From Prevotella sp. (GTDB lineage: Bacteria > Bacteroidota > Bacteroidia > Bacteroidales > Bacteroidaceae): a stretch of DNA of 39,215 nucleotides. The position numbers and the translations under genes are program-made. The notes beneath the pieces are model-generated. The model ran no database searches and was not told where the DNA came from. It saw nothing but the letters and a program-made list of their open reading frames with translations. The DNA lies in contig JAFUVB010000020.1 in NCBI GenBank assembly GCA_017471245.1, positions 1 through 39,215 on the forward strand, read 5' to 3'. Shown here piece by piece: positions 3,662 through 32,700 of the stretch (position 1 is its first letter; the number at the start of each line of letters is the position of its first letter).

Positions 3662-3783
3662 TAGAAGCAAGAGGCAAGAAGCAAGAAGCACGAGAATGGA
3701 ACTATGATATAGAGATAAGAACAGAGCATTGTATCTCAGTGCATATCTCTCACCTCTAATAAACTCACCTCTCACCTCTAAAA
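3662..3783. repeat. Composite intergenic repeat (arms plus 60-bp core)
   Basis: Directly after the receptor stop codon come AGAAGCA/AGAGGCA units, then a 60-bp core at 3692-3751 (starts GAGAATGGAACTATGATATA, ends GCATATCTCTC), then CACCTCT-type units to 3783. The same core is at 17064-17123 and, inverted, at 31980-32039 and 12591-12653. It separates two genes that otherwise look like one operon. Confidence 0.75.
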
Positions 3784-3821
3784 ATCTCCTCTATTTCAAC
3801 AATAAACGAGAATACAAAAAG

Positions 3822-4847
3822 ATGAAGAAAAGAATACAGATAATGATATGCTGCGCAGCCGCGCTGCTGTGCGCTTGCAGCAACGAAATGGACATTGAAG
3901 TGCTGAACAGCAATCCGAAAATGGTGCTCTACTGTTTTCCAAATACGGAGCACGACACCACGATCATCAACCTGAGTGCCAGCGTTCCCGTGGCAAAGAA
4001 AACCAGAAACACCTCGCATGAGCAGGTGGTCGTAAGCAATCCCCGCATCATCTACCGCGTGAATGGCGAGGAGCGCATGGTGAGCCAGGCTGGTGAGAAC
4101 ACCGACTATGTGCCGAAGAACAGTTATTACGTGGTGGGTGCTAACCGTTCCGGCGACCGTATCAGCATTGAGGTGTCAGCCGAAGGGTATGCCGACATCC
4201 ATGCAGAAACGGTGATTCCCGACATGCCCGACGTGGCAGCGTTCAGGAATGCCATCCCCGTGCGCCGCGACGATATGAATTACGATCAGTATCGCATTGC
4301 GCTGAACAGCGATCCCGCAAGTGACGACTACTATGCCGTAAGTGCCGACTTCTTCTGCAATGAGAGAGAAGTGCGATATGATGAGCTGAATGATGAGTGG
4401 CAGGAATACACCGTCTACAGTCGCCATGGCTCAGCCATCAACGTGGATGATGAACCTGCGCTGAATCCGATAAGCACGCTCGACGACTTCTTTGAGTATG
4501 ACAATGCTTTCTATAACGATTTCTATATCTTCAACGACAATCTCTTCAACGGCAGCCAGTATACGCTGCGCCTGAACATGTCGCCTCTTTCATACGCTTG
4601 GGGGCGCGACATCATTTCCTATGGCTATGTGTTCAAGATTTATAAGATATCGCAGGAGTATTACCGTTTCATCAAGTCGCTCAACGACGTCTCCAACAAC
4701 TGGTTGGGTGAATACGGACTGGCTCCGCTATCGCCTACACTGAACAATGTGGCAGGCGGCTTAGGCGTGGTGGGCGGCTACAGCGTTGCTGAACACGCAT
4801 ATTCCTATGAACCAGATTACCCCAATCAATCTTATTTATATGAATGA
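3822..4847 (+). CDS. DUF4249-like surface lipoprotein
   Basis: 341-residue predicted lipoprotein. The start is set at ATG 3822 (MKKRIQIMICC), which gives a proper signal peptide and lipobox (LLCAC, lipidated cysteine near residue 18). The longer frame from 3729 would read through the intergenic repeat. After the lipobox comes an Ig-like region with alternating strands (VLYCFPNTEHDTTIINLSAS) typical of DUF4249 proteins, which accompany TonB receptors in Bacteroidota and are assumed to be surface partners of the receptor. Domain assignment is by pattern only. Its last bases overlap the start of the FecR-like gene (ATGAATGA, 4840-4847), which suggests translational coupling. Function beyond receptor partner is unknown. 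Confidence 0.75.
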   Translation: MKKRIQIMICCAAALLCACSNEMDIEVLNSNPKMVLYCFPNTEHDTTIINLSASVPVAKKTRNTSHEQVVVSNPRIIYRVNGEERMVSQAGENTDYVPKNSYYVVGANRSGDRISIEVSAEGYADIHAETVIPDMPDVAAFRNAIPVRRDDMNYDQYRIALNSDPASDDYYAVSADFFCNEREVRYDELNDEWQEYTVYSRHGSAINVDDEPALNPISTLDDFFEYDNAFYNDFYIFNDNLFNGSQYTLRLNMSPLSYAWGRDIISYGYVFKIYKISQEYYRFIKSLNDVSNNWLGEYGLAPLSPTLNNVAGGLGVVGGYSVAEHAYSYEPDYPNQSYLYE

Positions 4848-5682
4848 CCTGAAAGACAAAAGCCTTGATTTCGTAGTGAAATATTATGAACAAGGGAAGA
4901 TCGACACGAAACGCGCGCTGCGCAGTGTGAAAGAACGGGCAGGAATGCCTGTTGCGCGCACGGTGAAGATGCACCGTTGGGCAGCCGTCGCTGCATCGCT
5001 GTTGGTGTTGGTTGCAGTCGGCATAGCCTATTTCGGTCTGCGCGGCGAGCAGGAAATGCTGTTGGCAGCAGGAGATAGTGCGCAGACATTCATCCTTACC
5101 GATCAGACACGCGTGACACTGTCGCCTCATTCCACCCTCACATACAAGAAATCGGCACCACGAGCAGTGGCGCTCAGCGGCAATGCCTATTTCGAAGTAA
5201 CCCACGACCAGCAGCATCCCTTCACCGTGAGCAACGAACTGTCGCGCGTGAGGGTGTTGGGAACGAAATTCATGGTGACTTCGCAGATGGGCGCATCGCA
5301 TCACCTGAAACGCACAACGGATGTTTATGTGGCCGAGGGAATGGTGGGGTTCTCTCCGAAAAGCGGGGAATCGCAAGGGCTGGTGCTCACGCGTGGCATG
5401 AAGGCACGGCTGACAGAGGGTGAGAATACCCCCAAACTGGTGGAGGCAGGATCGGTGAACCAGACCGCATGGGCTACGGGCATGTTCCATTTCGACAATG
5501 CTCCCATCGACAGTGTGCTCAGTGACCTCTCGCAATTCTATTCCCTCCAGCTCAGCTGCAGCAATGTCTCGAAACGGCTCAGCGGCGATTTCAAGGCCGA
5601 CTCCTCGCGCAGCAATCTGCTGGAAATCATCAGTATCATAGAACAGACATTGGATGTGAACATCCGAATAAACAATGAATAA
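4840..5682 (+). CDS. FecR-family anti-sigma factor, no adjacent sigma gene
   Basis: 280-residue single-pass inner-membrane protein. It has a short cytoplasmic N-terminus (about 1-46), a membrane segment (about 47-66, WAAVAASLLVLVAVGIAYFG), a periplasmic FecR domain (about 85-200, with LSGNAYFEVTHD and VRVLGTKFMV) and a C-terminal STN-like DUF4974 module (about 205-278, starting FHFDNAPIDSVLSDLSQFY). FecR proteins hold an ECF sigma factor and release it on a signal from the STN domain of a TonB receptor. Here the receptor is two genes upstream. Start ATG 4840 is preferred over the upstream TTG/ATG codons because it begins the conserved N-terminus and overlaps the previous stop by 8 nt. No sigma gene lies next to it, which is unusual; the nearest are at 13423 and 28261. 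Confidence 0.85.
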   Translation: MNDLKDKSLDFVVKYYEQGKIDTKRALRSVKERAGMPVARTVKMHRWAAVAASLLVLVAVGIAYFGLRGEQEMLLAAGDSAQTFILTDQTRVTLSPHSTLTYKKSAPRAVALSGNAYFEVTHDQQHPFTVSNELSRVRVLGTKFMVTSQMGASHHLKRTTDVYVAEGMVGFSPKSGESQGLVLTRGMKARLTEGENTPKLVEAGSVNQTAWATGMFHFDNAPIDSVLSDLSQFYSLQLSCSNVSKRLSGDFKADSSRSNLLEIISIIEQTLDVNIRINNE

Positions 5683-5688
5683 ACGGCG

Positions 5689-6393
5689 ATGACCATCTTT
5701 TTTATCCTTTTCTTGTTGGCCTTCGGCACACTGTCGGCATCAGCGCAAGGCGAAGAACCATGGCGCAACAACGGACATATCGAATTAGGATTCTCGCAGG
5801 ATGCCTGGAATATGGAGATAGGCTATGCGCGGATGTTCACACCTTACATGGGAGTAGGTGCCAGTGTGCTGATGGATAATGAATACAATGGCAAGTCGTT
5901 AGTGGATTATCTCATGGAGAGCTATACCGACGAAAGCGATTATGACCCTGACGACATCATGCGCTTCAGTCTGATTCCTTCGCTCATCCTCCGCACGCCC
6001 GTACTGCCGCTCAGCAAAAGAACCGATCGTGGCGACGGAGTGCTGTTGCAAGTGGAGCCGGCACTGATGTTCAGTGTCCCGGTGAATGAGTCGGAAGACG
6101 TTCCCGATGCCGATTTCATTGCCCAGATACCGGCTCAGAAAGACGGCTTTCATGTGTATACCGTCCCCACCGTGCGCGTGAAGAACACAGGCGGCAAGTG
6201 GTTCTACTGGCGCATGAAGGCGTCGTTAGGCTACAAGCAGGGAGCGGGCTTCTTCTATGTGGCATATTCACTGTCGGACTACAGTGTGTATGACAGTCGC
6301 AGGAATATCCGTTTGAAGGGCAAACCTGTTCACAACTTCCCCAAAAGAAAATTCTGCGGCACGGTGTCGGTTGGTGTGAGTCTGTCGTTCTGA
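5689..6393 (+). CDS. Small outer-membrane beta-barrel-like protein
   Basis: 234-residue exported protein I cannot assign to a named family. A signal peptide (MTIFFILFLLAFGTLSASAQ) is followed by amphipathic strands (HIELGFSQDAWNMEIGYARM, VGVGASVLMDN-like) and a C-terminal strand ending in F (VSVGVSLSF), as expected for an outer-membrane barrel. It starts 6 nt after the FecR stop, so it is very probably cotranscribed with the receptor, lipoprotein and FecR genes. It converges on the lyase gene, with a palindromic repeat in between. Role unknown; it may be a structural or sensing component of the receptor system. Confidence 0.7.
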   Translation: MTIFFILFLLAFGTLSASAQGEEPWRNNGHIELGFSQDAWNMEIGYARMFTPYMGVGASVLMDNEYNGKSLVDYLMESYTDESDYDPDDIMRFSLIPSLILRTPVLPLSKRTDRGDGVLLQVEPALMFSVPVNESEDVPDADFIAQIPAQKDGFHVYTVPTVRVKNTGGKWFYWRMKASLGYKQGAGFFYVAYSLSDYSVYDSRRNIRLKGKPVHNFPKRKFCGTVSVGVSLSF

Positions 6394-6413
6394 GTTGTTA
6401 GCCTGAATAGTTC

Positions 6414-6537
6414 AAGGAGTTAAGGAGTAAAGGAGTGAAGGAGTGGAGACGATAGTTTAGCTAATAAAAGCTATATGCCAAAACAACGGATATCATTTGT
6501 CTTCACTCCTTAACTCCTTCACTCCTTAACTCCTAAA
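6414..6537. repeat. Inverted tandem-unit repeat between convergent genes
   Basis: The left arm (6416-6446) is built of GGAGTTAA/GGAGTAAA/GGAGTGAA units. The right arm (6504-6535) is the inverted equivalent (CACTCCTTAACTCCTT...). About 57 bp lies between. The arms can pair into a long imperfect hairpin. It sits between the stop codons of two convergent genes, so a transcription-termination role is possible. Confidence 0.75.
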
Positions 6538-6566
6538 AATAGTAGAGTTTTGATGTGAGCCTTGTT

Positions 6567-12400: not shown

Positions 12401-12542
12401 CCAGTTGCTGGTTAACACAAGTAAGCCCGTTTCGGTGATAGCCTATGAATGTGGCTTTGCCGACCCGAAGTATTTCAGCAAGTGCTTCAAGGCAACCACC
12501 GGCATGACTCCGTCGGAATATAAGACAAGGGGTGAGAAGTGA
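9444..12542 (+). CDS. Membrane sensor-AraC regulator lacking kinase domains
   Basis: 1032 residues. A signal peptide (about 1-26) is followed by a large periplasmic region of two-component-regulator-type propeller repeats (about 30-700; e.g. DGQGMIWFSTNDGLFRYDG, GTLWLGTKKDGIFR, GRLWVATRHGGLCCV) and a Y_Y_Y-type beta-sandwich (about 765-850). One membrane helix (about 858-880) leads into a basic linker (about 880-925) and a C-terminal AraC-type helix-turn-helix (about 930-1030; ISIDDMAQACAVSRTGLHRK, SVIAYECGFADPKYFSKCF). Classical hybrid two-component systems of Bacteroidota have kinase, ATPase and receiver domains between membrane helix and AraC domain; none is present here and the frame is unbroken. 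It is therefore probably a one-component membrane-tethered activator, likely of the divergent lyase gene. Its last codons lie in a GGTGAGAAGTGA repeat unit. Confidence 0.88.
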   Translation: MNRGGRYILLLMLCLLPLTAIRVVGQTRYRLTTFEDFNNETSKVSRIVRDGQGMIWFSTNDGLFRYDGYEFRNFKSHSGDGINMSSNRITSMYPSSDGSIWCVVGGRVFLFDMQSYRYIDVMADYERQHGKTYHISKLRPLPCGTTWLFTDDGLMFALQDARPTRSIQLMATHEPTDGLTVMCDSKQRSWVLTSQHTYLHHDNVFKRFDQTFWRVISTEQFTWLVSDDGKLWMYDERAGQPRPWNHPLLTAPVKGYSTLNDKNIVLCTEAGLLKLSPDGKKLETTAVTWKVSKVVQDKHGNVWLLGSDGRLSMADRQLQHIVNIEGVRMNDLNIHADKYGTLWFFADNGDAYYAYADNPARLYPYNNGEAIGNINNTIYDEQGGIWFLRDGVVCRLAFESQRFRQLPLHHPDQVRSLIIDRQQRLLVTTRNEADISVFSRTGAPLGWLGHDGTIGTSWQPFGAAVYSSFIDKYGTLWLGTKKDGIFRLHLQQDGNYQVDQFRHDDKDPYSLSDNEVYDFAADADGRLWVATRHGGLCCVADPKASTLRFTHAANDLKGWTAGRDVGVSSLLLLPSGLLLVGTYDGLYIGDAREKDFKKMTFKKHQREANRKESISSSAIADLIQVSDGRIFITTEDGGVNEILTQDLTSDRLDFLHYDLSTGFPTDITRMMIQAKGSLWVTTPNRLVEMRLGQSQHPDINTFLMKENPHFSVAAPVPMDSTRWAFGTEEGVMIIDLNQLKTSSFTPPIVVTGVSKEGSSIDYAEGRNDTIRLSSHERDLTIWFAALDYEDTRHVVYAYRMGEDGDRPWTYLGHNHSIAMSQMKPGTYYVNIRSTNSDGVWCDNQRTLVIIVKPAFWETTWALLLMVLMISALAAAVAYTVHYIRKLKRQRHEMLEKYLALLEKSEPAKEPKPIRVSEAPAIDKTDDALMQRLVGFVEDNLGNSDISIDDMAQACAVSRTGLHRKVKVLLGTTPMEFMREARIRKSAQLLVNTSKPVSVIAYECGFADPKYFSKCFKATTGMTPSEYKTRGEK

Positions 12543-12684
12543 GGGGTGAGAAGTTCGAAGTGAGAAGTCAGAGGTTTAGAAGTCAGAGGTGAGAGAAATG
12601 TTCTGAGATATGAGGCTCTATGTTCAAAGACAATAGCACGGTTCTATTCTCTCACCTCTAATTACTCACCTCTAACCTCTAAAA
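12529..12684. repeat. Composite intergenic repeat overlapping regulator 3' end
   Basis: GGGGTGAGAAGT / GAAGTGAGAAGT units start inside the last codons of the upstream gene. A core at 12591-12653 (inverted relative to the copy at 3692) follows, then CACCTCTAATTACTCACCTC units as the inverted right arm. It belongs to the same family as 3662-3783, 17026-17154 and 31927-32168. Confidence 0.7.
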
Positions 12685-13280: not shown

Positions 13281-13423
13281 AGAAGGTGTTTCAAAATACA
13301 GATATTCATATAAAAACAACGGATTTCACGGATATTGCGGATTTAAGTCATGCTGATAGCCAGGAACTAAAATAACCTGTTTAATCCGTGAAATCCGTTG
13401 TGGTTTCTTTTAACACGCCCTCT
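13281..13423. mobile_element. MITE-like element, copy A
   Basis: 143 bp with imperfect terminal inverted repeats: AGAAGGTGTTTCAAAA on the left, and AGAGGGCGTGTTAAAA as the reverse complement of the right end. Inside is a second inverted pair, ACAACGGATTTCACGGAT (13317-13334) and its exact reverse complement (13384-13401). A second copy with the same ends and order is at 25063-25206. It has no coding capacity. The right end reaches the stop codon of the sigma gene (13423), so it lies between two convergent genes. Confidence 0.75.
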
Positions 13424-14121: not shown

Positions 14122-15525
14122 ATGAAGTATTTCAAGACAATCAAGATGATGGCAGTGGCAGGCATGATGTGCATGCCGTTGCTGGCTCAGGCACAACTGC
14201 TGAAGGGCAAGTTCGTGGGTGTGGAAACAGATGACGTGGTCGTTGGCTACTCTCCCGACGGCAACATGATGAACATGCAGTATAACGATCTGAAGGTGGC
14301 AGATGACGGCACATTCACCTTCGACATGGAAATGTCGGATGCTGTTGCCGATGTATGTATCTACGTTGGCGAGAAAGGCACTTTAGGTGCACAGTTGGTG
14401 AAAGGCAAGACCGTGGAGATGAATGTTACCGCTAAAGGTGATGAACTGGAAGCCACGTTCAAGGGACCGAATGCAGCCGTTTGCCGATTGGTAAACCAGA
14501 AAGCGATGGCTTTCGACATGTCGAAATACTTTGCCATGGATCCTTCCAACCGTAAGACCAATGCGGAATATCGCGCCTTGTTGGAAGAGGAGAACGCTAA
14601 GGTAAAGGCTTTGCTGCCCAAGATCAAGGATAAGAATCAACGCGAATACTACACGAAGCTGGCTGACGCTGAGTATCGCTGGATGAAGATGCGTATCATC
14701 GCCGATGACTGCGACGAGAAGAAACTCGACCGCAACGAGAATGCAGAAGTGCAAGCTTTGTTGAAAGATATAGATATCAACGATGATATCAACTATCAGA
14801 CTAATTTCTCTCTCTGGAAACTCATCAGCATGCCCAAGGCAAAGATGGAAGGCAACTGTGAGGCATATTGCTACGAACTGATGGATTATACCAATAAATT
14901 AGTGACCAACCCCAATGTACGCAAGCAGATGGTGCGCATCATCGGACAGAATTATTACACCTACGGCGACGGTTCCGGCGACTATGAGACCTTCACAAAG
15001 CGCTTTAAGGAGTTTGCCGGCGAGGATGCAGCTATGGTTGACCAGATGTATGCTCAGTTCATGGAAGTGAAGAAGTCAAGAGAGAAGACCGCAGCCGGCA
15101 CACCTGCCCCGGATATCACGCTCGATCTTCCCGATGGCAGCCAAGTGCAGCTGAAAGATATTGCCAAGGGCAAGTTCACCTATATTGATGTGTGGGCTAC
15201 CTGGTGTGGACCGTGCAAGCGCGAGATTCCCCACATGGCGAAGCTCGTGGAAAAGTTCAAGGGCAACGACAAAGTGAATTTCATCAGCATCTCTGTGGAC
15301 GAGGATGTGAATGCATGGAAGAAAATGATTGATGCCGACAAACCCGCATGGCCGCAATATAACATTAACGGTGAGACCAACAGGAAGTTCTCTGCCGACT
15401 GGGGCATCACGGGCATTCCCCGCTTCATCATGATCGACAAGAACGGCAACATCTTCGCCGCCGATGCTTCCCGCCCGTCTAACGAGGAAACAGCAAATAT
15501 CATCGAGGAACAGACGAGAAAGTGA
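14122..15525 (+). CDS. Exported TlpA-like thioredoxin, DUF4369-like N-domain (A)
   Basis: 467 residues. A signal peptide (about 1-24, ending LLAQAQ) is followed by an N-terminal beta-rich domain of DUF4369 type (about 25-120, LLKGKFVGVETDDVVVGYSP), a helical middle region (about 125-325) and a C-terminal thioredoxin fold (about 328-467) with the active site WCGPC at 361-365 and cis-proline motif GITGIPRF. Such proteins act in the periplasm or at the outer membrane as thiol-disulfide reductases or oxidoreductases. It is the first of two tandem paralogs (next at 15627), 101 nt apart; their last 50-80 coding bases are almost identical. It is divergent from the ECF sigma gene. No clear -7/-33 pair was found upstream, which fits dependence on an alternative sigma factor (inference). 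Confidence 0.9.
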   Translation: MKYFKTIKMMAVAGMMCMPLLAQAQLLKGKFVGVETDDVVVGYSPDGNMMNMQYNDLKVADDGTFTFDMEMSDAVADVCIYVGEKGTLGAQLVKGKTVEMNVTAKGDELEATFKGPNAAVCRLVNQKAMAFDMSKYFAMDPSNRKTNAEYRALLEEENAKVKALLPKIKDKNQREYYTKLADAEYRWMKMRIIADDCDEKKLDRNENAEVQALLKDIDINDDINYQTNFSLWKLISMPKAKMEGNCEAYCYELMDYTNKLVTNPNVRKQMVRIIGQNYYTYGDGSGDYETFTKRFKEFAGEDAAMVDQMYAQFMEVKKSREKTAAGTPAPDITLDLPDGSQVQLKDIAKGKFTYIDVWATWCGPCKREIPHMAKLVEKFKGNDKVNFISISVDEDVNAWKKMIDADKPAWPQYNINGETNRKFSADWGITGIPRFIMIDKNGNIFAADASRPSNEETANIIEEQTRK

Positions 15526-15626
15526 AGAATGAAGAGTGAAAAATACTTTCAGGGACTGGCTTTGTCATGTGCCTGTCCCCTAAGATTACTCTAAAACATT
15601 TGATAACAAAGAATTATATACATTAT

Positions 15627-17021
15627 ATGAAACATTTTAGAACAATCAAATGGACAATGATGGCAGCCATGCTCTGCATGCCAGTATTGGTATCGGCACA
15701 GCTGATGAAAGGTAAGATTATCGGTAGTGATTTGAAGAACATCACCGTGGTGTATTCTACTACAGATGATGTCCTCGAAAGAGAATATCGGGAGACACAG
15801 GTGAATGACGGTGTGTTTACCTTCGACGCCGACATCCCCGGTGAGAGTACAGACGTAGAGATTGCTATTGACAATGGCAACGTGCTCGGTGCTCATTTAG
15901 TGAAAGGTAAGACCGTGGAAGTGACCATCGTACATCAGAACGGTGCTTTCACCGCTTCTTTCAAGGAAGAGATGAAAGGTGTCAGTCCGGTCGTCAGCAA
16001 GATGGCCACAGCGTATAACATCATGCGTTACTTCTCTCTGGATCCAAATGACAAGACCACTTATGAGGACTACCGCAAGTTGCTTGACAACGAATGCAAC
16101 GATGTCAAGGCACTGCTCAAGGGTATCAAAGACAAGAAGGCAAGACAGTACTATACCGCGCTGAACGAGGCTAAGTATAAGGAGCAGAAGCTCCGTCTGT
16201 TGAGTGATAGGGCATACAATGAGAAGAAAAAACCGGCAGACTATCCCGAATATGTGGAGATACTGAAGGATGTAGATATCAATGACATGATCAGTTTCCG
16301 GTCGGGCCTCTCCTTGACCAAGCTCCTCAGCAAGGTAGATGCCGAACAGGCTTTCAAAGGTGATATGGGTCCTTACTGCAAGGATATCATGCAACAGGCA
16401 GAGCAGTATGTCACCAACAAGGCGCTCCGTCGCTCTATCGTCAATACCGTGGGATACAACTACTTCACCTTCGGTGACAACTCCGGTGACTACCATGCTT
16501 TCTTTGATGAATATAAGAAGTTCGCCGGTGCAGAGAATGCTGATGTCCCCGCTAAGTATGCTTCGGTCATCGCCTCCTGGGACAAGACCAAGAGCGGCAT
16601 CCCGGCACCCGACATCACACTGACCGACAAGGATGGCAACCAAGTGCAGCTCAAGGATATCTGCAAAGGCCAGTTCACCTATATCGACGTGTGGGCTACC
16701 TGGTGCGGACCCTGTAAGAAGGAGATTCCTTTCATGGAGAAAACCGTGGAGCGTTTCAAGGACAATGACAAGGTGATGTTCATCAGCATCTCCATCGACG
16801 AGGATGTGAACGCGTGGAAGAAAATGATTGAAAACGACAAACCGCAGTGGCCGCAGTATAACATCAACAAGCAGACTGCCAAGCAGTTCTCCACCGACTG
16901 GGGCATCACCGGCATTCCCCGCTTCATCATGATCGACAAGAACGGCAACATCTTCGCCGCTGATGCATCCCGTCCATCAGAAGAGAAGACTGCAATGACT
17001 ATTGAGGAGCAGACGAAGTGA
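15627..17021 (+). CDS. Exported TlpA-like thioredoxin, tandem paralog (B)
   Basis: 464 residues from ATG 15627 (MKHFRTIKWTMM), which gives the same signal-peptide pattern as paralog A; the frame upstream to 15567 adds a non-signal stretch. Domain order is the same: signal peptide (1-24), DUF4369-like domain (LMKGKIIGSDLKNITVVYST), helical region, thioredoxin fold with WCGPC at 359-363 and GITGIPRF. The protein is clearly homologous to A throughout, but DNA similarity peaks at the 3' end, suggesting recent conversion or selection there. A composite repeat follows before fecR. Confidence 0.9.
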   Translation: MKHFRTIKWTMMAAMLCMPVLVSAQLMKGKIIGSDLKNITVVYSTTDDVLEREYRETQVNDGVFTFDADIPGESTDVEIAIDNGNVLGAHLVKGKTVEVTIVHQNGAFTASFKEEMKGVSPVVSKMATAYNIMRYFSLDPNDKTTYEDYRKLLDNECNDVKALLKGIKDKKARQYYTALNEAKYKEQKLRLLSDRAYNEKKKPADYPEYVEILKDVDINDMISFRSGLSLTKLLSKVDAEQAFKGDMGPYCKDIMQQAEQYVTNKALRRSIVNTVGYNYFTFGDNSGDYHAFFDEYKKFAGAENADVPAKYASVIASWDKTKSGIPAPDITLTDKDGNQVQLKDICKGQFTYIDVWATWCGPCKKEIPFMEKTVERFKDNDKVMFISISIDEDVNAWKKMIENDKPQWPQYNINKQTAKQFSTDWGITGIPRFIMIDKNGNIFAADASRPSEEKTAMTIEEQTK

Positions 17022-17025: not shown

Positions 17026-17154
17026 CAAGCTTTTAGAAGTTAGAAGTTAGAGGCGAGAGGTGAGAGAATAGAACTAAGATATTGGCATGATGAATGAGCG
17101 TTGTATCTCAATACATATCTCTCGCTTCTCACCCCTCACCTCTCACCTCTAAAA
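17026..17154. repeat. Composite intergenic repeat between thioredoxin B and FecR
   Basis: The left arm is AGAAGTTAGAAGTTAGAGGCGAGAGGTGA-type units (17033-17063, shown as short units), the core 17064-17123 (GAGAATAGAACTAAGATATT...CATATCTCTC) and the right arm CTTCTCACCCCTCACCTCTC-type units. Arms are mutually inverted. The core aligns without gaps to 3692-3751. Confidence 0.75.
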
Positions 17155-17170
17155 ATTAACAATCCCCACT

Positions 17171-23530: not shown

Positions 23531-23568
23531 AAGTTGACGAGTTGACAAGTTGACGAGTTGACAAGTTG
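23531..23568. repeat. 8-nt tandem repeat between susD and thioredoxin C
   Basis: Alternating units AAGTTGAC and GAGTTGAC occur between two genes that probably share a transcript. Unlike the other repeats this one has no inverted partner arm. Confidence 0.8.
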
Positions 23569-23589
23569 TTACTGCTTAATATATTAAGG

Positions 23590-25044
23590 ATGAAAGCAAT
23601 AATAAAGAAAATATGTATGATGCTTGTTGGGGCAGCCTTCGTGCTGCCCTCACAGGCACAGTTGCTGAAGCTCAATGTCAAAGACAAGGCTTTGCAGCAG
23701 AACTTGCAGTTGGTGAATCTCAAGTACAACGACTTCCTTCCCATCACTTTCGATGAAAAAGGCGCATGGTCGTATAACAACGACAAGGTGGACAAGCCTG
23801 TGGAAATCACCGTCTTCATGATGAGCAAAGGCATCTTCATCCCCGTTTTGATTGAACCGGGAAAGACTGCCATTGTCACCTTTCAGCAGAAGAAGGGCGA
23901 TGTTGCGGTGAAATATGCCGGCGACAATGCCGATGCTTCGAAGTTCCTGTACGAGGAAGTCAAGCTCTCTCCCGAGCGTTTGGCTCCCCGCAGCTTTGAT
24001 CCCGAGGATTATGAGGATATGAGTGAGGAGCAGATTAAGGAGATTAAGGAGAACATAGAAAAGCAAAAGAGCGACACCATCACTTTCGATGAGGCCTACC
24101 GCCGTCTGGATCAGCATTACGCCAGCACGCTGAAAGCCGCCAAGGCGGTGAAGAATGCTGAGCGCCAGGCCGAATACCTGCATCGCACAGAACTGCACTA
24201 TCTGGCAAGTCTGATCAATCTCACCCAGACCAAGGCTCATGCCTGGGGCTTCAATCTGAAGAACAACGCCTATTATCAGGAACTTTTACAGCGCATCAAT
24301 CCCAACGACGAGCTTGGAACAGACCAGATGTACAGTCTGCCGCAAACCTTCATTGAGAATAAACTCACCACCGACCGCCTTGATCAGGATCAGACTGCCT
24401 ACACGCTCGACTATATAAATAATGTGGAGAAGTATATCACCAACGAGAATGTGCGCCATAAGCTGCTCAGCGAATTGGGCATGATAGTCTTCAACAGCAG
24501 CTATTCAGGACAGGTGTTCGAGATGGATAAGTTCTGGCCCGCATTCAAGAAAGCTGCGCCCAAGCGCACCATCGACTATTTCCAGCCCATCTACGACTCG
24601 CGCATGGCTACAAAGGCTGGTCAGCCTTGTCCGGATGTGTCGTTCTCAGATCCTCAGGGCAATCCCCACAAGCTGTCCGAATATTTCGGCAAGGTGCTCT
24701 ATATAGACATCTGGGCAACGTGGTGCGGTCCTTGCTGCGCGGAGATTCCGCACATCGAGAAGCACGTGGCGCACTACAAGGACAACCCCAAGATCCAGTT
24801 CATCAGCATCTCTATCGACAGCAACAAGCAGGCTTGGCACAACAAATTGGAGAAAGACAAGCCCGAATGGCTGCAGTTCCTCTGCAACAAGCAGGAGTAT
24901 GAGCTGATCAGCAAGCAGTGGGGCATCACGGGCATCCCGCGCTTCGTCATCATCAATGCCGACGGAACCATCAACAACAGTGAGGCGTTCCGCCCCAGTG
25001 CTCCTGATTTCCGCGAGCGCATCGATAAGATCATCGGGGAGTAA
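23590..25044 (+). CDS. Exported TlpA-like thioredoxin (C)
   Basis: 484 residues from ATG 23590 (MKAIIKKICMM), which starts a clean signal peptide ending VLPSQAQ; the alternative upstream start at 23566 only lengthens it. It has an N-terminal beta-rich domain (about 25-120), a helical middle with an acidic Glu-rich stretch (about 138-160) and a C-terminal thioredoxin fold with WCGPCC (378-383) and GITGIPRF. An additional cysteine directly follows the CxxC, and there are GQPCPDV and FLCNKQ cysteines. It is placed directly after susD, so it is likely exported to act on or with the SusCD system. The N-domain resembles that of thioredoxin D (same AFVLPSQ signal end and LLKL/LLKV-DKALQ motif). Confidence 0.9.
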   Translation: MKAIIKKICMMLVGAAFVLPSQAQLLKLNVKDKALQQNLQLVNLKYNDFLPITFDEKGAWSYNNDKVDKPVEITVFMMSKGIFIPVLIEPGKTAIVTFQQKKGDVAVKYAGDNADASKFLYEEVKLSPERLAPRSFDPEDYEDMSEEQIKEIKENIEKQKSDTITFDEAYRRLDQHYASTLKAAKAVKNAERQAEYLHRTELHYLASLINLTQTKAHAWGFNLKNNAYYQELLQRINPNDELGTDQMYSLPQTFIENKLTTDRLDQDQTAYTLDYINNVEKYITNENVRHKLLSELGMIVFNSSYSGQVFEMDKFWPAFKKAAPKRTIDYFQPIYDSRMATKAGQPCPDVSFSDPQGNPHKLSEYFGKVLYIDIWATWCGPCCAEIPHIEKHVAHYKDNPKIQFISISIDSNKQAWHNKLEKDKPEWLQFLCNKQEYELISKQWGITGIPRFVIINADGTINNSEAFRPSAPDFRERIDKIIGE

Positions 25045-25632
25045 CACGTCTTGATTTCTGCAAGAAGGTGTGTCAAAATACAGATATTCCTATAGGAACA
25101 ACGGATTTCTCGGTTTTTACGGATTAAAGTCATGCTGATAATCATGAACTTAAATAATCTGTTTAATCCGTGGAATCCGTTGTGGTTTCTTTTCGGCACG
25201 CCCTCTTGTTCTGTTAAAAAGCACGTCGTTCTAAACGCTATAATGCCATAGAAATCGTTCAGGATCCTGCAAATCCGAGGACGAAAAAGGATAGTTGAAA
25301 GCGCCTCTCATGCGATGTTGAAAAAGTGTGACCGCGTGTTACTGCGAGTGTTTCTTTCAAAAACAGCTTCTTTTTGAACTGAAAACTGCTCCTTTCTGAA
25401 TTGAAAACTCACAGTTTTTGGCGCAAAAACTTTCGCGAACTATCAGATGTCGGAAGATGAAGGCTGTGAAATCGTTGTAACTATCTTGTTGTCAGGAAGT
25501 TGGAAAATGAGGTGGCTGATAAACAAAGTGACTTGCAATTCCGTATTTGAAATACCAATCAAAGGATTTTATTCACGGGAATTCATAAAAAAAGAATACA
25601 ATTATAAAAACAGTATATTATAAAAAACGACA
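25045..25632. other. Gene-free region with MITE-like element and unexplained sequence
   Basis: The first part is the MITE-like copy B. The remainder (25207-25632) has no open frame of note. It contains an imperfect direct repeat, TTTTTGAACTGAAAACTGCT and TTTCTGAATTGAAAACTCAC (25371-25415), followed by GCGCAAAAACTTTCGCG. The text then turns A/T-rich ahead of the lipoprotein genes. No promoter could be called with confidence. Confidence 0.6.
25063..25206. mobile_element. MITE-like element, copy B
   Basis: 144 bp, same orientation and structure as 13281-13423. Ends are AGAAGGTGTGTCAAAA and, inverted, AGAGGGCGTGCCGAAAA. Most internal positions agree between the copies, including GTCATGCTGATA in the centre and TCCGTTGTGGTTTCTTTT before the right end. 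It begins 19 nt after the stop codon of thioredoxin C. No transposase is present, so it would depend on one elsewhere. Confidence 0.75.
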
Positions 25633-26040
25633 ATGATGAAAACAAGAAACATATTAGCATTACTCTCTGTTCTGTTCCTGACAATTGGTATTTCAGGATG
25701 CAGTGGCGATGAAGATGGCATGGCCTCTAACAGTATTGTAGGAAAGTGGGTACTAAAAGAAATCCGTATAGGTTTTCCCGGTTATTCTTTTACTGATGGA
25801 AAAGATATTTATGAGTTTAAAGAAGATAATACCATTATTGTAAAAAGAAAAGATAGTAATGAAGTTTTATTTCTTGATAATGGCATTTATAACTATGATT
25901 ACAACAAAGAAAAGAATGTTGTAATTATTGATCAGAAGGAATTTTTTTGTTTCTTCCTATCTGAAAAGAAATTGCATATTGGCATTTCCTCCATTGATGA
26001 TAACGGGACTGTTTCCTATTTTTTTGATAAGATTGATTAA
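25633..26040 (+). CDS. Small lipocalin-like lipoprotein 1
   Basis: 135 residues. A signal peptide with lipobox ends ISGC (lipidated C23), then an acidic spacer (SGDEDGMAS) and a small beta-rich domain opening with GKWVLKEI, the G-x-W opening of lipocalin-like folds. Base composition is clearly more A/T-rich than the neighbouring susCD and thioredoxin genes, suggesting separate origin. A related gene follows 39 nt downstream with the same MKTRN start. Function unknown; such proteins are often annotated only as lipocalin-like. The second codon (ATG 25636) is an equally good start. Confidence 0.75.
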   Translation: MMKTRNILALLSVLFLTIGISGCSGDEDGMASNSIVGKWVLKEIRIGFPGYSFTDGKDIYEFKEDNTIIVKRKDSNEVLFLDNGIYNYDYNKEKNVVIIDQKEFFCFFLSEKKLHIGISSIDDNGTVSYFFDKID

Positions 26041-26079
26041 CAGAGAAAATAACTATCAAATGAAATAAACAGAATAAAC

Positions 26080-26523
26080 ATGAAAACAAGAAATGTATTA
26101 ACAATACTGCTTCTCCTATCCATTTCAATAGGATTTGCGGGATGCGGAGATGATAAAGAAGACAATGCTAATACTCCATCAGAAATGCTTGTGGGTAAAT
26201 GGAAACTTGTTAAAATAGCTGGTGGGATACCAGCGGATGATAGCTTTTTAATCCTAAATGCTAATGGTACTTTTTCAAAGGACGACTATGACCAAAGAAA
26301 AGAATGCAGAGTTATCGTTGAAGGTAATTATGAATTGTTAGAAGACTGGACGTATGATGAGTCAACGAACCATTACACCACAGTGATACAGTTGGGTGAC
26401 TCCTCAACATTCCTTTACTATTGTGCACTAAAGGAAAAAGAAATGATTCTAGTTCTTAAACTTCCTGGTGAATGGGAGAGTTTTGCAGACCCCAGGCAAT
26501 TTTATATAAAAGTAGAAGAATAA
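26080..26523 (+). CDS. Small lipocalin-like lipoprotein 2
   Basis: 147 residues. Lipobox FAGC (lipidated C22), spacer GDDKEDNANTPSE, then a small beta-rich domain starting VGKWKLVKIAGG. It shares the leader pattern MKTRN(I/V)L and the G-K-W motif with the preceding gene, so they are probably diverged tandem duplicates. It has the same A/T-rich composition. Function unknown; it is exported and probably anchored in a membrane by lipid. Confidence 0.75.
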   Translation: MKTRNVLTILLLLSISIGFAGCGDDKEDNANTPSEMLVGKWKLVKIAGGIPADDSFLILNANGTFSKDDYDQRKECRVIVEGNYELLEDWTYDESTNHYTTVIQLGDSSTFLYYCALKEKEMILVLKLPGEWESFADPRQFYIKVEE

Positions 26524-26535
26524 TAGCTCTAAATC

Positions 26536-26649
26536 ATGATGAAAACAAAATTATTAATAATAGTATTATTGTTTTCTGTGTCTTTTGTTATAAAAGCCAT
26601 CGTTAATGGTGAAACGCTCACAGAGAAAATCTATATTAACAACAAATAA
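26536..26649 (+). CDS. 37-codon exported peptide candidate or gene remnant
   Basis: ATG 26536 opens 37 codons ending TAA 26649: a Lys-start, 15-residue hydrophobic signal-like segment (LLIIVLLFSVSFVIKA) and a short tail (IVNGETLTEKIYINNK). It sits 12 nt after lipoprotein 2 and 9 nt before thioredoxin D, spacing that fits one operon. The leader MMKTK resembles those of the two lipoproteins. It could be a small secreted peptide or the remaining 5' end of a deleted exported protein. No family recognised. Confidence 0.4.
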   Translation: MMKTKLLIIVLLFSVSFVIKAIVNGETLTEKIYINNK

Positions 26650-26658
26650 GAACATCAA

Positions 26659-28185
26659 ATGAAAAAACTATTGTCGGTGATAATGATGATGCTTGCAGGG
26701 GTTGCCTTCGTACTGCCCTCACAGGTGCAGTTGTTGAAAGTGGTCGTTGCGGATAAGGCTTTGCAGGCGCAGACATCCATTCCTTGGCAGAAAGCACTGC
26801 AGTTTGACAACAAAGGTGTCGCCATACTGGAGAATCCGGAGATAACCGGGCGCATGGAACTGCTTGTGGAACTGGAGGAGCGAAAAGAGTTCTTCAACGC
26901 AATTGTTGAGCCGGGACAGACACTCACCATCACCGTCACGCTGAAGGATGATAAGACAGAGGCGAGCTATACCGGTAAGTATGCCGAAGAGTGTAAGTAT
27001 AAGAATGCCGACATGTATTTCTATCCCTCAACCTATATTCCCGTCAAGCCCGAAAAGCCTATCGACTTCGCTGCTGCAAAGGCTATGTTAGAAGATGTGC
27101 TCAGCGCAGCATCGGCATTAGCCCAGCAAACGTGTAAGGTGGTGGGCAATGTAAAAGATATAGCCGACGGCAAGACGCTGGTGTTGATGGTGGAGAGAAG
27201 CGAGCAGGTGATTGACTCTACCACGATCAAGGACGGGAAGTTTGAGTTTGTGATTCCCATCAACGACACCACCACCCAGTATCCGCTCATCGTCTCTTAT
27301 CCTGATAGCAGTCCGCTGCCCGTTCAGGTTCAGTTGTATGCCGAGCCGGGCGCTGTGCTGAAGGCCACGCTTTCGAATGACTTGGAGAATAACCATGTCG
27401 TCGGTTCACCGCTGAACTTCATCTATAAGGTGTTCACGGAGAAATACATGGCTGTCATGAAAAAGGCGATAGCCCTGCGCACCGCTTCTCTCGACGAGAG
27501 TCTGTCTGAGGAAGAGCGTGCGGAGAAAACCAGGCTTGCCAATGCCGAGCAGAACAAGATTATTGAACTGGAACAGGAGTTTGCCGAGCAGAACATCGAC
27601 AACATCATCGGCATCAACCTGCTGGCGCAGCGCGCGGTATTGTTCGACAAGAAGGAGGTGGCGCGCATCATGAAGGATGTACCTGCCAAATGGGACAACC
27701 ATCCCGACGTTATCCAACTGCGCAAGGACCTGATGGTGGAAGCAAAGACCGCTGAGGGAGAATCCTACATCGACCTCACCATGCCAGATCCGAAAGGCAA
27801 GAGCATGAGTCTTTCACAGCATATCAAGAAGAACAAGCTGACGCTGGTTGACTTTTGGGCATCGTGGTGCGGTCCGTGCCGCGCATCGATCCCCGGCGTG
27901 AAGCGGCTCTATGCCAAATATAAGAAGCAGGGCTTCGGCGTGGTGGGCGTTTCGCTCGACTCCAAGAAAGAGACATGGCTCAAGGCATTGAAGGAACTCG
28001 ACATGCCATGGCCGCAGATGAGCGACGTGAAAGGCTGGGACAGTGAGGCTGCCAAGGCGTACAACATCAAGGGCATTCCCTTCACGTTGCTTGTTGCCAA
28101 AGACGGCACCATCGTGGGACGTAACATCTGGGGCGAGCAAGCACTGGAAGAGCGCATCGTGAAGTTCCTTGGGGAACAGAAATAG
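26659..28185 (+). CDS. Exported TlpA-like thioredoxin with two N-domains (D)
   Basis: 508 residues. A signal peptide (about 1-24, FVLPSQ) is followed by an N-terminal domain (about 25-125) resembling that of thioredoxin C, a second classical DUF4369 domain (about 150-250; CKVVGNVKDIADGKTLVLMV, DGKFEFVIP), a helical Glu-rich segment (about 255-350) and a thioredoxin fold (about 370-508) with WCGPC at 403-407 and cis-proline GIPFT. It looks like a fusion of the thioredoxin C N-domain to a standard DUF4369-TlpA protein. It is the last gene of the block and converges on an ECF sigma gene. Role: periplasmic thiol-disulfide exchange; substrate unknown. Confidence 0.9.
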   Translation: MKKLLSVIMMMLAGVAFVLPSQVQLLKVVVADKALQAQTSIPWQKALQFDNKGVAILENPEITGRMELLVELEERKEFFNAIVEPGQTLTITVTLKDDKTEASYTGKYAEECKYKNADMYFYPSTYIPVKPEKPIDFAAAKAMLEDVLSAASALAQQTCKVVGNVKDIADGKTLVLMVERSEQVIDSTTIKDGKFEFVIPINDTTTQYPLIVSYPDSSPLPVQVQLYAEPGAVLKATLSNDLENNHVVGSPLNFIYKVFTEKYMAVMKKAIALRTASLDESLSEEERAEKTRLANAEQNKIIELEQEFAEQNIDNIIGINLLAQRAVLFDKKEVARIMKDVPAKWDNHPDVIQLRKDLMVEAKTAEGESYIDLTMPDPKGKSMSLSQHIKKNKLTLVDFWASWCGPCRASIPGVKRLYAKYKKQGFGVVGVSLDSKKETWLKALKELDMPWPQMSDVKGWDSEAAKAYNIKGIPFTLLVAKDGTIVGRNIWGEQALEERIVKFLGEQK

Positions 28186-28260
28186 CGCAGGCATGCAATC
28201 ATCCCCCGATGCCTTCATGAAGGCAGGCGCTTTCAGGTGGCGAACAAGAAGTCAGACGCT

Positions 28261-28758: not shown

Positions 28759-28786
28759 CTTTGGGGAAGTCCATAGTTTACAAATT

Positions 28787-28858
28787 CATAGTTCAAGGTT
28801 CATCATTTCAGTTGCTGTGTCAATCGCCGCATAACCGAACAATGAACCATGAACTATG
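28787..28858. repeat. Inverted repeat between mdh and sigma gene
   Basis: CATAGTTCAAGGTTCAT (28787-28803) pairs with ATGAACCATGAACTATG (28842-28858) with a single mismatch over 17 bp and a 38-nt loop. Further 7-8 nt units of the same text (GAACAATTAACTGTTAAC) follow. The structure matches other inverted tandem-unit repeats in this window. It lies upstream of the sigma start and after mdh in transcript order sigma-independent, so a regulatory role is not clear. Confidence 0.75.
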
Positions 28859-28888
28859 AACAATTAACTGTTAACTATGAATGGTAAG

Positions 28889-29881: not shown

Positions 29882-29968
29882 AGTTGTTTAATTAATATGA
29901 TAATAATTTGTTAAGAAATATCTAATTAGGTGCCTGAAGGATATGTATTCCATGGCTTTATCTGAGTG

Positions 29969-29976
29969 CAAAGATA
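29969..29976 (-). promoter_or_regulatory. -7 element for mdh
   Basis: Minus-strand TATCTTTG is an exact TAnnTTTG match about 88 nt upstream of the mdh start. No convincing -33 TTTG was seen at the right distance. Confidence 0.5.
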
Positions 29977-30025
29977 CGAAAAATCTGATTGCGAACTATA
30001 TATTTAATAAAAATTAATAGTGTAA

Positions 30026-30058
30026 CTTGGCGATTAAGCGAAAAATAAGTTACTTTTG
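30026..30058 (+). promoter_or_regulatory. Promoter for Xaa-Pro aminopeptidase
   Basis: CTTG (30026-30029) and -7 TACTTTTG (30051-30058) separated by 21 nt; the -7 element is exact. The leader to ATG 30133 is about 68 nt. Confidence 0.6.
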
Positions 30059-30132
30059 TGCTGACAATATGCCCGATTCATCAGCGGACAAGTGGTCTTG
30101 GCACGAATTAATAACCTACAGATAAACACAAA

Positions 30133-31926
30133 ATGAAAACAATCAATGAACGACTGGCGGCGCTGCGCGAGGTGATGCGGCGAGAGCGGCTCGATGCATT
30201 CATCTTCCCGAGCACCGACCCGCACAATGGTGAATATGTTCCCGACCACTGGAAGGGGCGTGAATGGATTTCCGGCTTCAACGGATCGGCAGGAGTGGCA
30301 GTGGTGACGATGAAAGAAGCTGCCCTGTGGACTGATTCCCGCTATTTCATTGCGGCGGCTGAGCAACTCAGTAGCACTGAATATGTGCTGATGAAGGAGA
30401 AAATACCTGGAACACCAACCATCACTGCGTGGTTAGGCAGCGTGCTGCGCGATGTGAGGTCTCCGCAGGTGGGTGTCGACGGGATGGTGAATTCCGCCGC
30501 TTCCGTGCAACAGCTGGTTGCAGAGCTGCGCAACGAGGGCGGTATCACTGTGCGCACCAATTTCGATCCGCTCTCACTGATATGGCGCAACCGTCCCGCA
30601 ATCCCCGCAAACAAGGTGTTTGTGCAGAAACTCGACTATGCCGGTGAGACTGCTCACGACAAGATACGCCGTGTGCGCGAGGCACTGCGCAAGTGCCATG
30701 CCGACGGCATGCTGGTGGCATCGCTCGACGATATTGCGTGGATGCTCAATCTCCGCGGCGATGACGTTCACTGCAATCCCGTCTTCGTGAGCTATCTGCT
30801 CATTTCTTCACAGAAAGCCACGCTGTTCATCAATCCCGACAAGCTTACGCCCGAGGTGGCAAACTATCTGCGCGGTGAGGGAGTGGACACTGACACCTAC
30901 GAGCATGTGGGCAAGGGACTGAAAGACTATTTCGAGTATAACATCCTGCTCGACCCCAACGAAATCAATTACACCTTATATAAAACGGTTACGCGCGAGA
31001 TTGTGAACGGCGAGTCGCCCGTGAAGCGCATGAAGACCGTGAAGAATGAAAGGGAAATAGCGGGTTTTCGTGAGGCGATGCTGAAAGACGGCATCGCCCT
31101 GGTGAAGTTCCTGATGTGGTTAGAGGATTCCTTGCGCCACGATGCGCCGACAGCACTCACGGAGGTGTTGGTTTCCGACAAGCTGGAACAGCTGCGCGCC
31201 GAGCAGCCTCTCTTTAGGGGTATTTCCTTTGACACCATTGCCGGCTATCAGGCTCACGGGGCTATCGTGCATTATGAGCCCACAGCCGAGACCGACATAC
31301 CGCTGAAGCCTGAAGGACTGATCCTGCTTGACAGCGGGGCGCAGTATCTCGACGGCACCACCGACATCACGCGCACCATCGCCCTCGGACCGCTCACCGA
31401 TGAGCAGCGCCATGTCTATACGTTGGTGCTGAAAGGTCATCTGCAACTGCAGAACCTGAAGTTCCCCAAAGGGGCAAGCGGCACGCAGCTGGATGCCTTG
31501 GCTCGCAAGGACATGTGGCGCGAGGGATACAATTTCCTGCACGGCACGGGTCATGGCGTGGGATCGTTCCTTAATGTGCATGAGGGTCCTCATCAGATAC
31601 GCATGGAATACAAGCCCGCTCCTCTGCTGCCGGGCATGACGGTGACCGATGAGCCAGGCATCTATGTGGAGGGACGCTTCGGCGTGCGCATTGAGAACAC
31701 CCTGCTCATCACTCCCTATATGAAGACCCCCTTTGGCGAGTTCCTGCAGTTTGAGCCTCTGACGCTCTGTCCCATCGACAAGACCCCCATTGTGAAAGAG
31801 ATGCTGACCGACGATGAAATCGCATGGCTCAACGAATACCACCAGCTGGTATACAATCGCCTGGCTCCCCATCTCAACGACAGTGAGCGCGAATGGCTGC
31901 GCGAAGCCACGGCTCCCATTGGGTGA
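30133..31926 (+). CDS. pepP: Xaa-Pro aminopeptidase (M24B)
   Basis: 597 residues, the long form common in Bacteroidales and eukaryotic APP1-like enzymes. It removes N-terminal residues before proline from peptides in the cytoplasm, using two metal ions. Two creatinase-N-type domains (about 1-310) precede the pita-bread catalytic domain (about 315-545). The five metal ligands are visible: D400 (LDSGAQY), D411 (TTDITR), H474 (HGTGHGVG), E507 (TDEPGIY) and E521 (RIENT). A C-terminal extension (about 535-597) follows. There is no signal peptide. It is divergent from mdh. Confidence 0.94.
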   Translation: MKTINERLAALREVMRRERLDAFIFPSTDPHNGEYVPDHWKGREWISGFNGSAGVAVVTMKEAALWTDSRYFIAAAEQLSSTEYVLMKEKIPGTPTITAWLGSVLRDVRSPQVGVDGMVNSAASVQQLVAELRNEGGITVRTNFDPLSLIWRNRPAIPANKVFVQKLDYAGETAHDKIRRVREALRKCHADGMLVASLDDIAWMLNLRGDDVHCNPVFVSYLLISSQKATLFINPDKLTPEVANYLRGEGVDTDTYEHVGKGLKDYFEYNILLDPNEINYTLYKTVTREIVNGESPVKRMKTVKNEREIAGFREAMLKDGIALVKFLMWLEDSLRHDAPTALTEVLVSDKLEQLRAEQPLFRGISFDTIAGYQAHGAIVHYEPTAETDIPLKPEGLILLDSGAQYLDGTTDITRTIALGPLTDEQRHVYTLVLKGHLQLQNLKFPKGASGTQLDALARKDMWREGYNFLHGTGHGVGSFLNVHEGPHQIRMEYKPAPLLPGMTVTDEPGIYVEGRFGVRIENTLLITPYMKTPFGEFLQFEPLTLCPIDKTPIVKEMLTDDEIAWLNEYHQLVYNRLAPHLNDSEREWLREATAPIG

Positions 31927-32700
31927 AGGTTTTTAGAGGTGAGAGTTTTTTAGAGGTGAGAGGTGAGTAGATTAGAGGTGAGAGATATGCACTGAGATAT
32001 AACGTTCTATTCTCATGCCTATATCATAGTTCCATTCTCTTGCTTCTTGCATCTTGCTTCTTGCTTCTTGCCTCTTGCCTCTTGCTTCTTGCCTCTTGCC
32101 TCTTGCCTCTTGCTTCTTGCTTCTTGTTACTTGATACTTGTCTCTCAGTGCATACTCTCACCTCTAAAATACTCACTGGATTTAACGGATTAAACGGGTG
32201 TCTTTCCAGTGCAGGCTAAATCCGTATAATCTGTAAAATCCGTGAAATCCGTTGTTTTAAAATTATTTGTCAGTCTGCGACGCTACGTGAATTTACGTAA
32301 ATATACATGAATTACTCGTAAATATTTACGATTCATTCGCGTTCATTCGCGCACATTTATGTTACGCCGTAGGCATTTAAATCCGTGAAATCCGTTGTTC
32401 TTAAAAGAATAATGGTTTGGGACGGCCGCATTTGTGGCCGTAATTATTCCAATTCGTTCTAATTCGTTTCTAAAAGAATATAGTCTACATAACTTGCGAA
32501 AGAAGAACAAAAATTATTTATGAATAATTCGCGTGTCATTTACGTATATTTACGTTTAAAGGAAAAAATGAGAAACGCGAATGAGCGTGAATGAATCACG
32601 AATTACTCGTAAATAATAAATATTAGGAGTGAAGGAGTTAAGGAGTGAAGGAGTGAATGAGTGTAGACAAATGTATTGCTACAGATTACAAGTTCTCGAA
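31927..32700. repeat. Large mosaic of intergenic repeats
   Basis: About 770 gene-free bases made almost wholly of repeat modules. In order: GAGGTGA units (31935-31979); the 60-bp core inverted (31980-32039); a long run of CTTGCTT/CTTGCCT 7-mers (32039-32127); CACCTCTAAAA; ACGGATTTCACGGAT-type text (32170-32255 and again 32379-32400), also found inside the MITE-like elements; ATTTACG/ATTCGCG units (32285-32350); a GGCCGC hairpin with ATTCCAATTCGTT (32424-32475, as at 170-217); GGAGTGAA units (32626-32658); and the AGACAAATGT core (32665-32707, as at 1 and 291). Confidence 0.8.

Follow-up and report, generated by a model that had tools for sequence, protein, structure and literature searches.

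Short dispersed quasi-palindromes with heptad arms in Prevotella: a family possibly remodelled by hairpin-templated strand switching

Introduction

Four gaps between genes in a 39,215-nt contig of Prevotella sp. (JAFUVB010000020.1, assembly GCA_017471245.1) carry variants of one core of about 60 bp, in both orientations and flanked by arrays of 7-nt units. What are these elements, and how do they come to be repeated, inverted and flanked in this way? The window analyzed here is that complete contig, part of a 3.73-Mb draft genome that is 94% complete. An initial annotation, made from the letters of the window alone, described a modular intergenic element that no gene explains, and named as possible origins a non-autonomous mobile element, a hairpin terminator or messenger RNA (mRNA) stabilizer, and an array grown by slippage around a transposed core. 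The modular description is supported, and the element is dispersed over dozens of places in the genome. All four features belong to a single family within a class of short dispersed quasi-palindromes. We consider it about an even chance that strand switching templated by hairpins remodels these elements and that they are copied from site to site. Comparison of orthologous loci in related species suggests that the elements remain at fixed sites downstream of genes, where the middle inverts and the two arms are rewritten in concert.

Results

A sequence profile built from 23 core copies recovers 36 places in the genome at a threshold of 50 bits, the four window cores included, besides a few additional split copies. 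A typical copy consists of (T)TTTAG and four heptads, then GAG-core-CTC, then four heptads in inverted orientation and CTAAA(A). Family elements span ~100-130 bp, AGAG...CTCT joins the arms to the core, and the core itself is a weak, imperfect palindrome. The exact 60-bp length first proposed for it holds for most copies within a base (59-60 bp); the rest are altered by tandem duplications within the core, by inserts or by deletions. All four window cores are present within 1-2 bases of the positions claimed at the outset, two on the forward strand and two inverted, with the second being the most diverged, and all four elements follow genes, as the initial annotation had it.

The arms agree in type within elements (Fisher p 1.2e-5). 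Among 37 typed rows, which count locus L059 twice, in both orientations, owing to its symmetry, 21 have AGAAGCA units on both sides (aa), 10 have AGAGGTG units on both sides (bb), five are mixed (ab), none is of the reverse mixed type (ba) and one is unclassed. Arms inverted across the core, which might be compared with the terminal inverted repeats of miniature inverted-repeat transposable elements (MITEs), are thus found in 31 of 36 typed rows, but their sequence has been exchanged between species at one site. The inversion described at the outset is more limited: elements 1 and 4 are among the five mixed cases and fold no better than shuffled sequences (z 0.86 and -0.07), so that "inverted arms" is untrue for some window copies, while elements 2 and 3 give whole-element z values of -1.71 and -3.31. 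Exactly four units occur in 29 of 54 arms in this genome; by a strict unit definition, 18 left and 14 right arms, out of 33 each, have that number. Near-identical heptad-palindrome pairs with a second core type also occur at G000 C6:15800-16277 and C21:28040-28494 (L115, L338).

Two ideas about the core were set aside. A structured RNA was rejected: no pair covariation was found, and Rfam matches in the window are transfer RNAs (tRNAs) only. A fixed polarity of the core ends was also dropped, as unlike end types occur in 24 of 27 rows here but in only 24 of 52 elements elsewhere. Conserved mismatches, tested against shuffled core ends, did not reach significance (p 0.05 at the lowest, for a single position).

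The core is not confined to this genome, the case that the initial annotation had named as counting against it. An impression of uniqueness from 60 relatives was overturned by six further carriers among 398 genomes: under strict filters, core-1-like elements occur in 6 of 397 other genomes of the genus, namely G117 and G339 (nine matches each), G202 (two), G237, G286 and G355. The heptad-palindrome pattern is more widespread, being found in 26 of 150 same-genus genomes including this one (25 of 149 others), against 3 of 150 for a reversed control. Across the order it is found in 2 of 198 genomes including this one (1 of 197 others), against 1 for the control; 67 unscored genomes are excluded from every count. 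Pattern-found elements elsewhere share AGAG-AWWW-S ends and have different cores. In a set of 52 elements outside this genome, fetched by patterns requiring at least one unit per side and including a few non-Prevotella loci, exactly four units occur in 45 of 104 arms, three in 20 and five in 8, and 15 elements have four units on both sides. An organism-named scan returned at least 116 stretches, and 33 of the 80 matches listed are titled Prevotella or Prevotellaceae. Also among the matches listed are AGAGGTG-like heptad palindromes from Fibrella, Sphingobacteriales, Saprospiraceae, Gemmatimonadales and a cyanobacterium (including L198, L233, L188, L212 and L251); some of these may be chance, as may single-unit palindromes from other phyla, and others clearly have several units per arm.

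Seven loci with a core-1-like element in G117 were compared with the sister species G202 and, where found, with G339 and G286. Multiple alignment within the elements is unreliable, and the statements on loci are readings of the sequence accompanied by pairwise identities uncalibrated against random sequence. The element differs between G117 and G202 at all seven loci. Flanks are 94.4-98.9% identical on each side at five of them (BLAST), and at L323 and L320 a single BLAST match spans the element (93.6 and 91.2%). At L320/L307 the arms are alike and the core is inverted between these two species, its identity being 0.66 as is and 0.89 when reverse-complemented, and BLAST reports a 115-nt minus-strand match at this locus. 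The core is likewise inverted between G117 and G339 at L324 (0.67 as is vs 0.81 reverse-complemented), where G202 has a different core with AGAGGTG arms. At L323 it is the arms that differ: the G117 and G202 cores are 0.88 alike and the left and right arms only 0.73 and 0.75, both arms being AGAAGCA-type in G117 and AGAGGTG-type in G202, while G339 retains the AGAAGCA type.

The remaining loci extend this range. The units at L321 are AGAAGCA in G117, AGAGGTG with AGGATT spacers in G202, GGAGTGT in G339 and GAGGAGTGTTTTC in G286, yet each species is symmetric about a core: arm against arm, identity is 0.87-0.93 within species, and between species the left arms reach only 0.44-0.67. In G202, L322 holds an element with CGGAAATAA-like arms and L325 a different core with a different arm type. 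Presence and absence in close relatives with clean borders, which the initial annotation had proposed to look for, is found at L319. The element there is present in G117 and G339 and absent from G286, and G202 lacks 124 nt, which leaves AGAAGCATGCTTCT, the outermost unit and its mirror, between flanks 97.3 and 97.4% identical to those of G117.

Placement relative to genes is biased. In this genome, 29 of 34 loci have a gene call on both sides, of which 18 lie in tandem gaps, 11 in convergent gaps and none in divergent gaps, and all 29 follow at least one gene end. The background of gaps of at least 60 nt in a 400-kb sample (n = 147) comprises 90 tandem, 24 convergent and 33 divergent cases, so that divergent gaps are depleted (0/29 vs 33/147, Fisher p 0.0029) and convergent gaps enriched (11/29 vs 24/147, p 0.019); the two sets were counted with open reading frame (ORF) callers of differing thresholds.

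Elements also occur inside genes. Of the 52 elements from other genomes, 15 fall within frames free of stops over at least 200 codons, 34 fall outside such frames and three are too close to the end of their locus; most of the 15 translate alike, as EVRGERxEVR, core and SLTSHLSPLTS. In this genome none of 34 loci is in frame, save for one 69-codon ORF at L012. An AAA-ATPase gene of G032 carries an element at a site where its close homologues in G006, G078 and G063 are 54 nt shorter, and the native stretch of the three homologues is unrecognizable there. The dtnK genes of G034 and G032 have single-sided arrays (+30 and +51 nt) where homologues read AAAGRRGTNCC; the arrays differ by three units, and the frame is kept.

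Positions in the window are collected in Table 1. The genes preceding elements 1-4 encode, in order, a TonB-dependent receptor, a regulator with Reg_prop, Y_Y_Y and HTH_18 domains, a redoxin-domain protein and an M24 aminopeptidase. An extra AGGGGTG/AGAAGTG array at 12528-12559 adjoins the low-side arm of element 2. In relatives, the gap of element 3 holds another heptad array in G253 (TTCAYAG/TGTAGAG). The gap of element 4 shows no core by eye in six relatives, in which orthology of the next gene is not established; in G252 it holds a remnant-like CTATTCTCTCACCTCTCACTT.

Table 1. Repeat elements in the window
Feature	Position	Strand	Description
Element 1, left arm	3663..3690	+	Heptads AGAAGCA AGAGGCA AGAAGCA AGAAGCA; begins 5 nt past the stop of the TonB-dependent receptor gene (923-3658)
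Element 1, core	3692..3750	+	74.5 bits, sequence profile; alignment
Element 1, right arm	3747..3784	+	CTCACCT-type units, one spacer unit, then A-run; no complementarity to left arm
Element 2, low-side arm	12560..12595	-	AGAAGTC/AGAGGTG units
Element 2, core	12592..12652	-	Inverted, most diverged of the four; 55.4 bits
Element 2, high-side arm	12649..12684	-	CTCACCTCTAATTACTCACCTCTAACCTCT
Element 3, left arm	17031..17066	+	TTTTAG and AGAAGTT/AGAGGCG/AGAGGTG units; 10 nt past stop of redoxin-domain gene
Element 3, core	17064..17122	+	80.3 bits
Element 3, right arm	17120..17156	+	Followed by A-run; FecR gene next (17171)
Element 4, AGAGGTG-type arm with spacer unit	31934..31984	-	Past the stop of the M24 aminopeptidase gene (30133-31926)
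Element 4, core	31981..32040	-	Inverted; 85.7 bits
Element 4, TTGCTTC-type arm	32037..32126	-	Grown to ~12.7 units
8-bp-unit element	6408..6541	.	GGAGTTAA/GGAGTGAA arm units around a different core; z -8.63
9-bp-unit element	13303..13410	.	ACGGATTTC arm units around a 30-bp core family; z -6.95
9-bp-unit element, second copy	25085..25193	.	Second copy of 13303-13410; 89% alike over a 132-nt stretch
Further 9-bp-unit element	32178..32256	.	z -3.02
Hybrid element	257..341	+	8-bp-unit arm, second core type, far-side heptads; related pieces at 1-61 and 32623-32714

The family belongs to a wider class with the same layout (heptad arms, AGAG, core, CTCT, inverted heptad arms) around other cores, and with other unit lengths. 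A 400-kb sample of this genome holds 99 arrays of 5-12-bp units, against one in shuffles, and 28 hairpins with arms of at least 22 nt, against none; chance is therefore excluded for the class. Unit sizes among the arrays are 7 bp (51), 9 bp (21), 12 bp (19), 8 bp (6) and 10 bp (2); 87 of the 99 fall outside ORFs as crudely called, and for 41 an inverted partner lies no more than 130 bp away. Seventeen of the hairpins have periodic arms, and these include a 9-bp family with a recurrent ~30-nt core as well as 12-bp families. The class is unevenly spread across the genus, as samples from other genomes indicate: 180 kb of G150 hold 26 arrays and 10 hairpins, 100 kb of G034 hold 18 and none, and 120 kb of G015 hold five and four, none of the four being periodic. 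The 9-bp-unit family (ACGGATTTC), with its recurrent TAAGTCATGCTGATAATCAGGAACTTAA-like core of ~30 nt, was also seen at L122, L123, L126, L130, L132 and L133, and 12-bp-unit palindromes of the GCTGCGTTACCT and CACCCGATGCCA types, with differing middles, at L119, L126, L129, L131, L132 and L134.

Two further repeats were observed in the window. A 35-bp tandem repeat of 2.8 copies (37256-37352) starts inside the end of a tRNA-Thr gene and lies between tRNA genes. A thioredoxin-like gene family at 14122-17021 and 23566-28185 has 300-nt stretches that are 81% alike.

Discussion

How might one process yield inverted cores, arms that change together and the loss seen at L319? According to published reports, strand switching at inverted repeats homogenizes arms and inverts spacers (PMC8604942, PMC8794818, PMC7202029), and features of this process appear here as the change of both arms around a kept core at L323 and as core inversion at two loci. 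A replication fork that meets an element would leave one strand to fold back. If the polymerase then copied one arm from the other, both arms would change together; if it copied the middle from the wrong strand, the core would flip; and if it skipped the hairpin, the outer units alone would stay. New copies could be made from elements elsewhere by way of short matches, with no need for a dedicated transposase. Short-patch illegitimate recombination may be relevant to such inter-site copying; a literature search listed no paper with that phrase. The effect on fitness is probably neutral or selfish, with elements being borne downstream of genes and in protein loops that can accommodate them. Scarcity of SbcD, a hairpin nuclease, may let palindromes persist, at most as a permissive condition. 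Its profile (TIGR00619) matches 10 of 54 same-genus genomes and none of this genome, G117, G202 and G339; draft incompleteness could hide the gene in single genomes. In a control, 12 of 14 genomes match, eight above the cut-off, and one match is a Bacteroides.

Several observations weigh against strand switching with copying between sites. Core and arms differ together at three of the seven G117/G202 loci, and a fourth has a different arm family. Copying in place does not by itself give such a joint change, so that copying from elsewhere would be needed at these loci, and we infer that route. Five copies have mixed arms, two of them in the window, where the pair does not fold, and covariation between core pairs was looked for and not found. 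Within this genome, the arms of one locus are not clearly more similar to each other than to those of other loci of the same type (p for excess similarity is 0.24 among the 21 aa copies and 0.018 among the 10 bb copies). The presence of SbcD does not separate genomes with the pattern (5/29) from those free of it (5/25), and loss of this nuclease was accordingly rejected as the dividing factor. The seven loci were picked for core-1 likeness in G117, so that rates cannot be read from them, and the genomes are drafts, in which small inversions between inverted arms could be assembly errors.

A non-autonomous transposon is a less probable alternative. The four-heptad arms of a MITE would be terminal inverted repeats mobilized by a cellular transposase, and arm types would be subfamilies replacing each other at favored sites. 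Constant arm length, T-rich and A-rich outer ends, multiple copies and element-sized turnover at fixed sites are consistent with this, and it accounts for the joint change of core and arms at L321, L324 and L325. However, it leaves core inversion and the rewriting of arms around a kept core unexplained. No target-site duplication is visible by eye at the few sites examined (L319, the AAA-ATPase gene and dtnK), the outermost arm units left at L319 are consistent with internal deletion, and in-gene copies either replace native sequence (the AAA-ATPase gene) or lie where the native sequence already matches the unit (dtnK). As a candidate driver, the Y1 transposase of the repetitive extragenic palindrome/bacterial interspersed mosaic element type (REP/BIME-RAYT, where RAYT denotes the REP-associated tyrosine transposase) was rejected: PF01797, the only family profiled, is present in 18 of the 26 genomes with the pattern and 14 of the 26 without it (p 0.39), some genomes being incomplete, and is absent from the element-rich G034, G124 and G146. 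This association test is weak, since G117, a "negative" genome, carries core-1-like elements. The mobile element of the initial annotation is thus not established as transposase-driven, with no terminal duplication seen and no driver identified. Core inversion at two orthologous loci and the conserved AGAG-AWWW-S junction would instead suit invertible cassettes, in which a site-specific recombinase, acting on the arms or where AGAG/CTCT join them to the core, inverts the core and swaps elements. We consider this improbable: very different arm sequences behave alike, which a sequence-specific enzyme would not accept, the rewriting of both arms is not accounted for, and the polarity of core ends is inconsistent outside this genome.

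The bias toward gene ends and away from divergent gaps is what functional 3'-end RNA hairpins, acting as terminators or mRNA stabilizers, would produce, but exclusion from promoters yields an equal bias. No T-tract follows the hairpin, the right arm being followed by A, and a window-wide terminator scan (loops of 3-8 nt only) found no terminator-like site at the four elements. With two of the four window copies failing to fold, and with no covariation in the core and no Rfam match beyond tRNAs, a functional 3'-end hairpin, whether the terminator or the mRNA stabilizer first suggested, is very improbable. Ordinary tandem repeats grown by slippage, inverted by happenstance and blurred by assembly noise, would explain why some arrays expand (to 12.7 units in element 4 and up to 28.6 in the sample) and why the dtnK arrays are three units apart between species. 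Slippage does change the number of units, in partial agreement with the initial annotation; it does not by itself yield the four-unit mode of arm length or a common 60-bp core at dozens of places, and the reversed-pattern control falls far below the true pattern. The shared core largely refutes this reading, which we regard as quite improbable overall.

A broader process is also conceivable, though we think it unlikely: a genus-wide writing of palindromes, in which post-gene sites act as docking sites, symmetric arms with a preferred length of four heptads are laid down, lost and laid down anew on both sides at once, and the core is a flipping cargo. Such a process would allow several unit sequences, would be shared by the four-unit facing arrays of Xanthomonas, and could be driven by a dedicated hairpin-copying or end-repair enzyme.

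Whether hairpin-templated strand switching or another process is at work, near-identical flanks with different palindrome states make the making, copying and loss of inverted repeats testable in sister strains. The elements also steadily provide the proteins of these bacteria with in-frame peptide inserts. In the literature searched, in which subscription journals are poorly covered, we found no description of these elements in Prevotella, no precedent for the rewriting of both arms at fixed sites and, by text search, no paper on peptides of the EVRGERxEVR/SLTSHLSPLTS type.

Comparison with known systems

Several known repeats share part of this organization. Rickettsia palindromic elements are described both between genes and, in frame, within genes unrelated to one another (PMC10969869). 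Their size is similar, and in-frame copies in unrelated protein genes recall those found here outside the present genome; the Prevotella elements differ in having tandem heptads as arms, cores specific to species groups and mostly intergenic copies. The BrickBuilt MITE of Porphyromonas gingivalis, another Bacteroidales repeat that joins inverted repeats and tandem units, is described as 23-nt tandem units between terminal repeats matching known insertion sequence (IS) ends (PMC4596501), whereas in Prevotella the tandem units themselves are the inverted arms and no IS match is established. Quasipalindrome strand switching offers the arm homogenization and spacer inversion seen between species here, but is presented as mutation acting on quasi-palindromes already in place rather than as the behavior of a dispersed family (PMC7202029, PMC8604942, PMC8794818). 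The TAACTGA heptads of Beggiatoaceae, reported also from some Bacteroidetes, form abundant intergenic arrays; as PMC4679880 describes them, these are direct repeats just upstream of start codons, with only one inverted case reported, in BOGUAY.

The nearest published case, judging from the section on arrays in PMC4692102, is that of the facing four-unit heptad arrays of Xanthomonas. Heptads of Xanthomonas (GGGAATC) and Nostoc (GGGGA(T/C)T) form dispersed arrays, mostly of four units, which are read there as G-quadruplex formers, and facing pairs number 70 (Xcc) and 75 (Xac). Most of these arrays lie between genes, close to where the upstream ORF ends, with few in divergent gaps, and prominent ones are poorly conserved between species (PMC4692102). 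The Prevotella elements share the 7-nt units, the four-unit mode, the facing pairs and the placement at gene ends; that section describes neither a common core nor the rewriting of orthologous arms. The Prevotella units differ, moreover, in lacking G-tracts (AGAAGCA has no GG and AGAGGTG a single one), and yet show the same four-unit mode and facing pairs. Quadruplexes are therefore not the general reason for such arrays.

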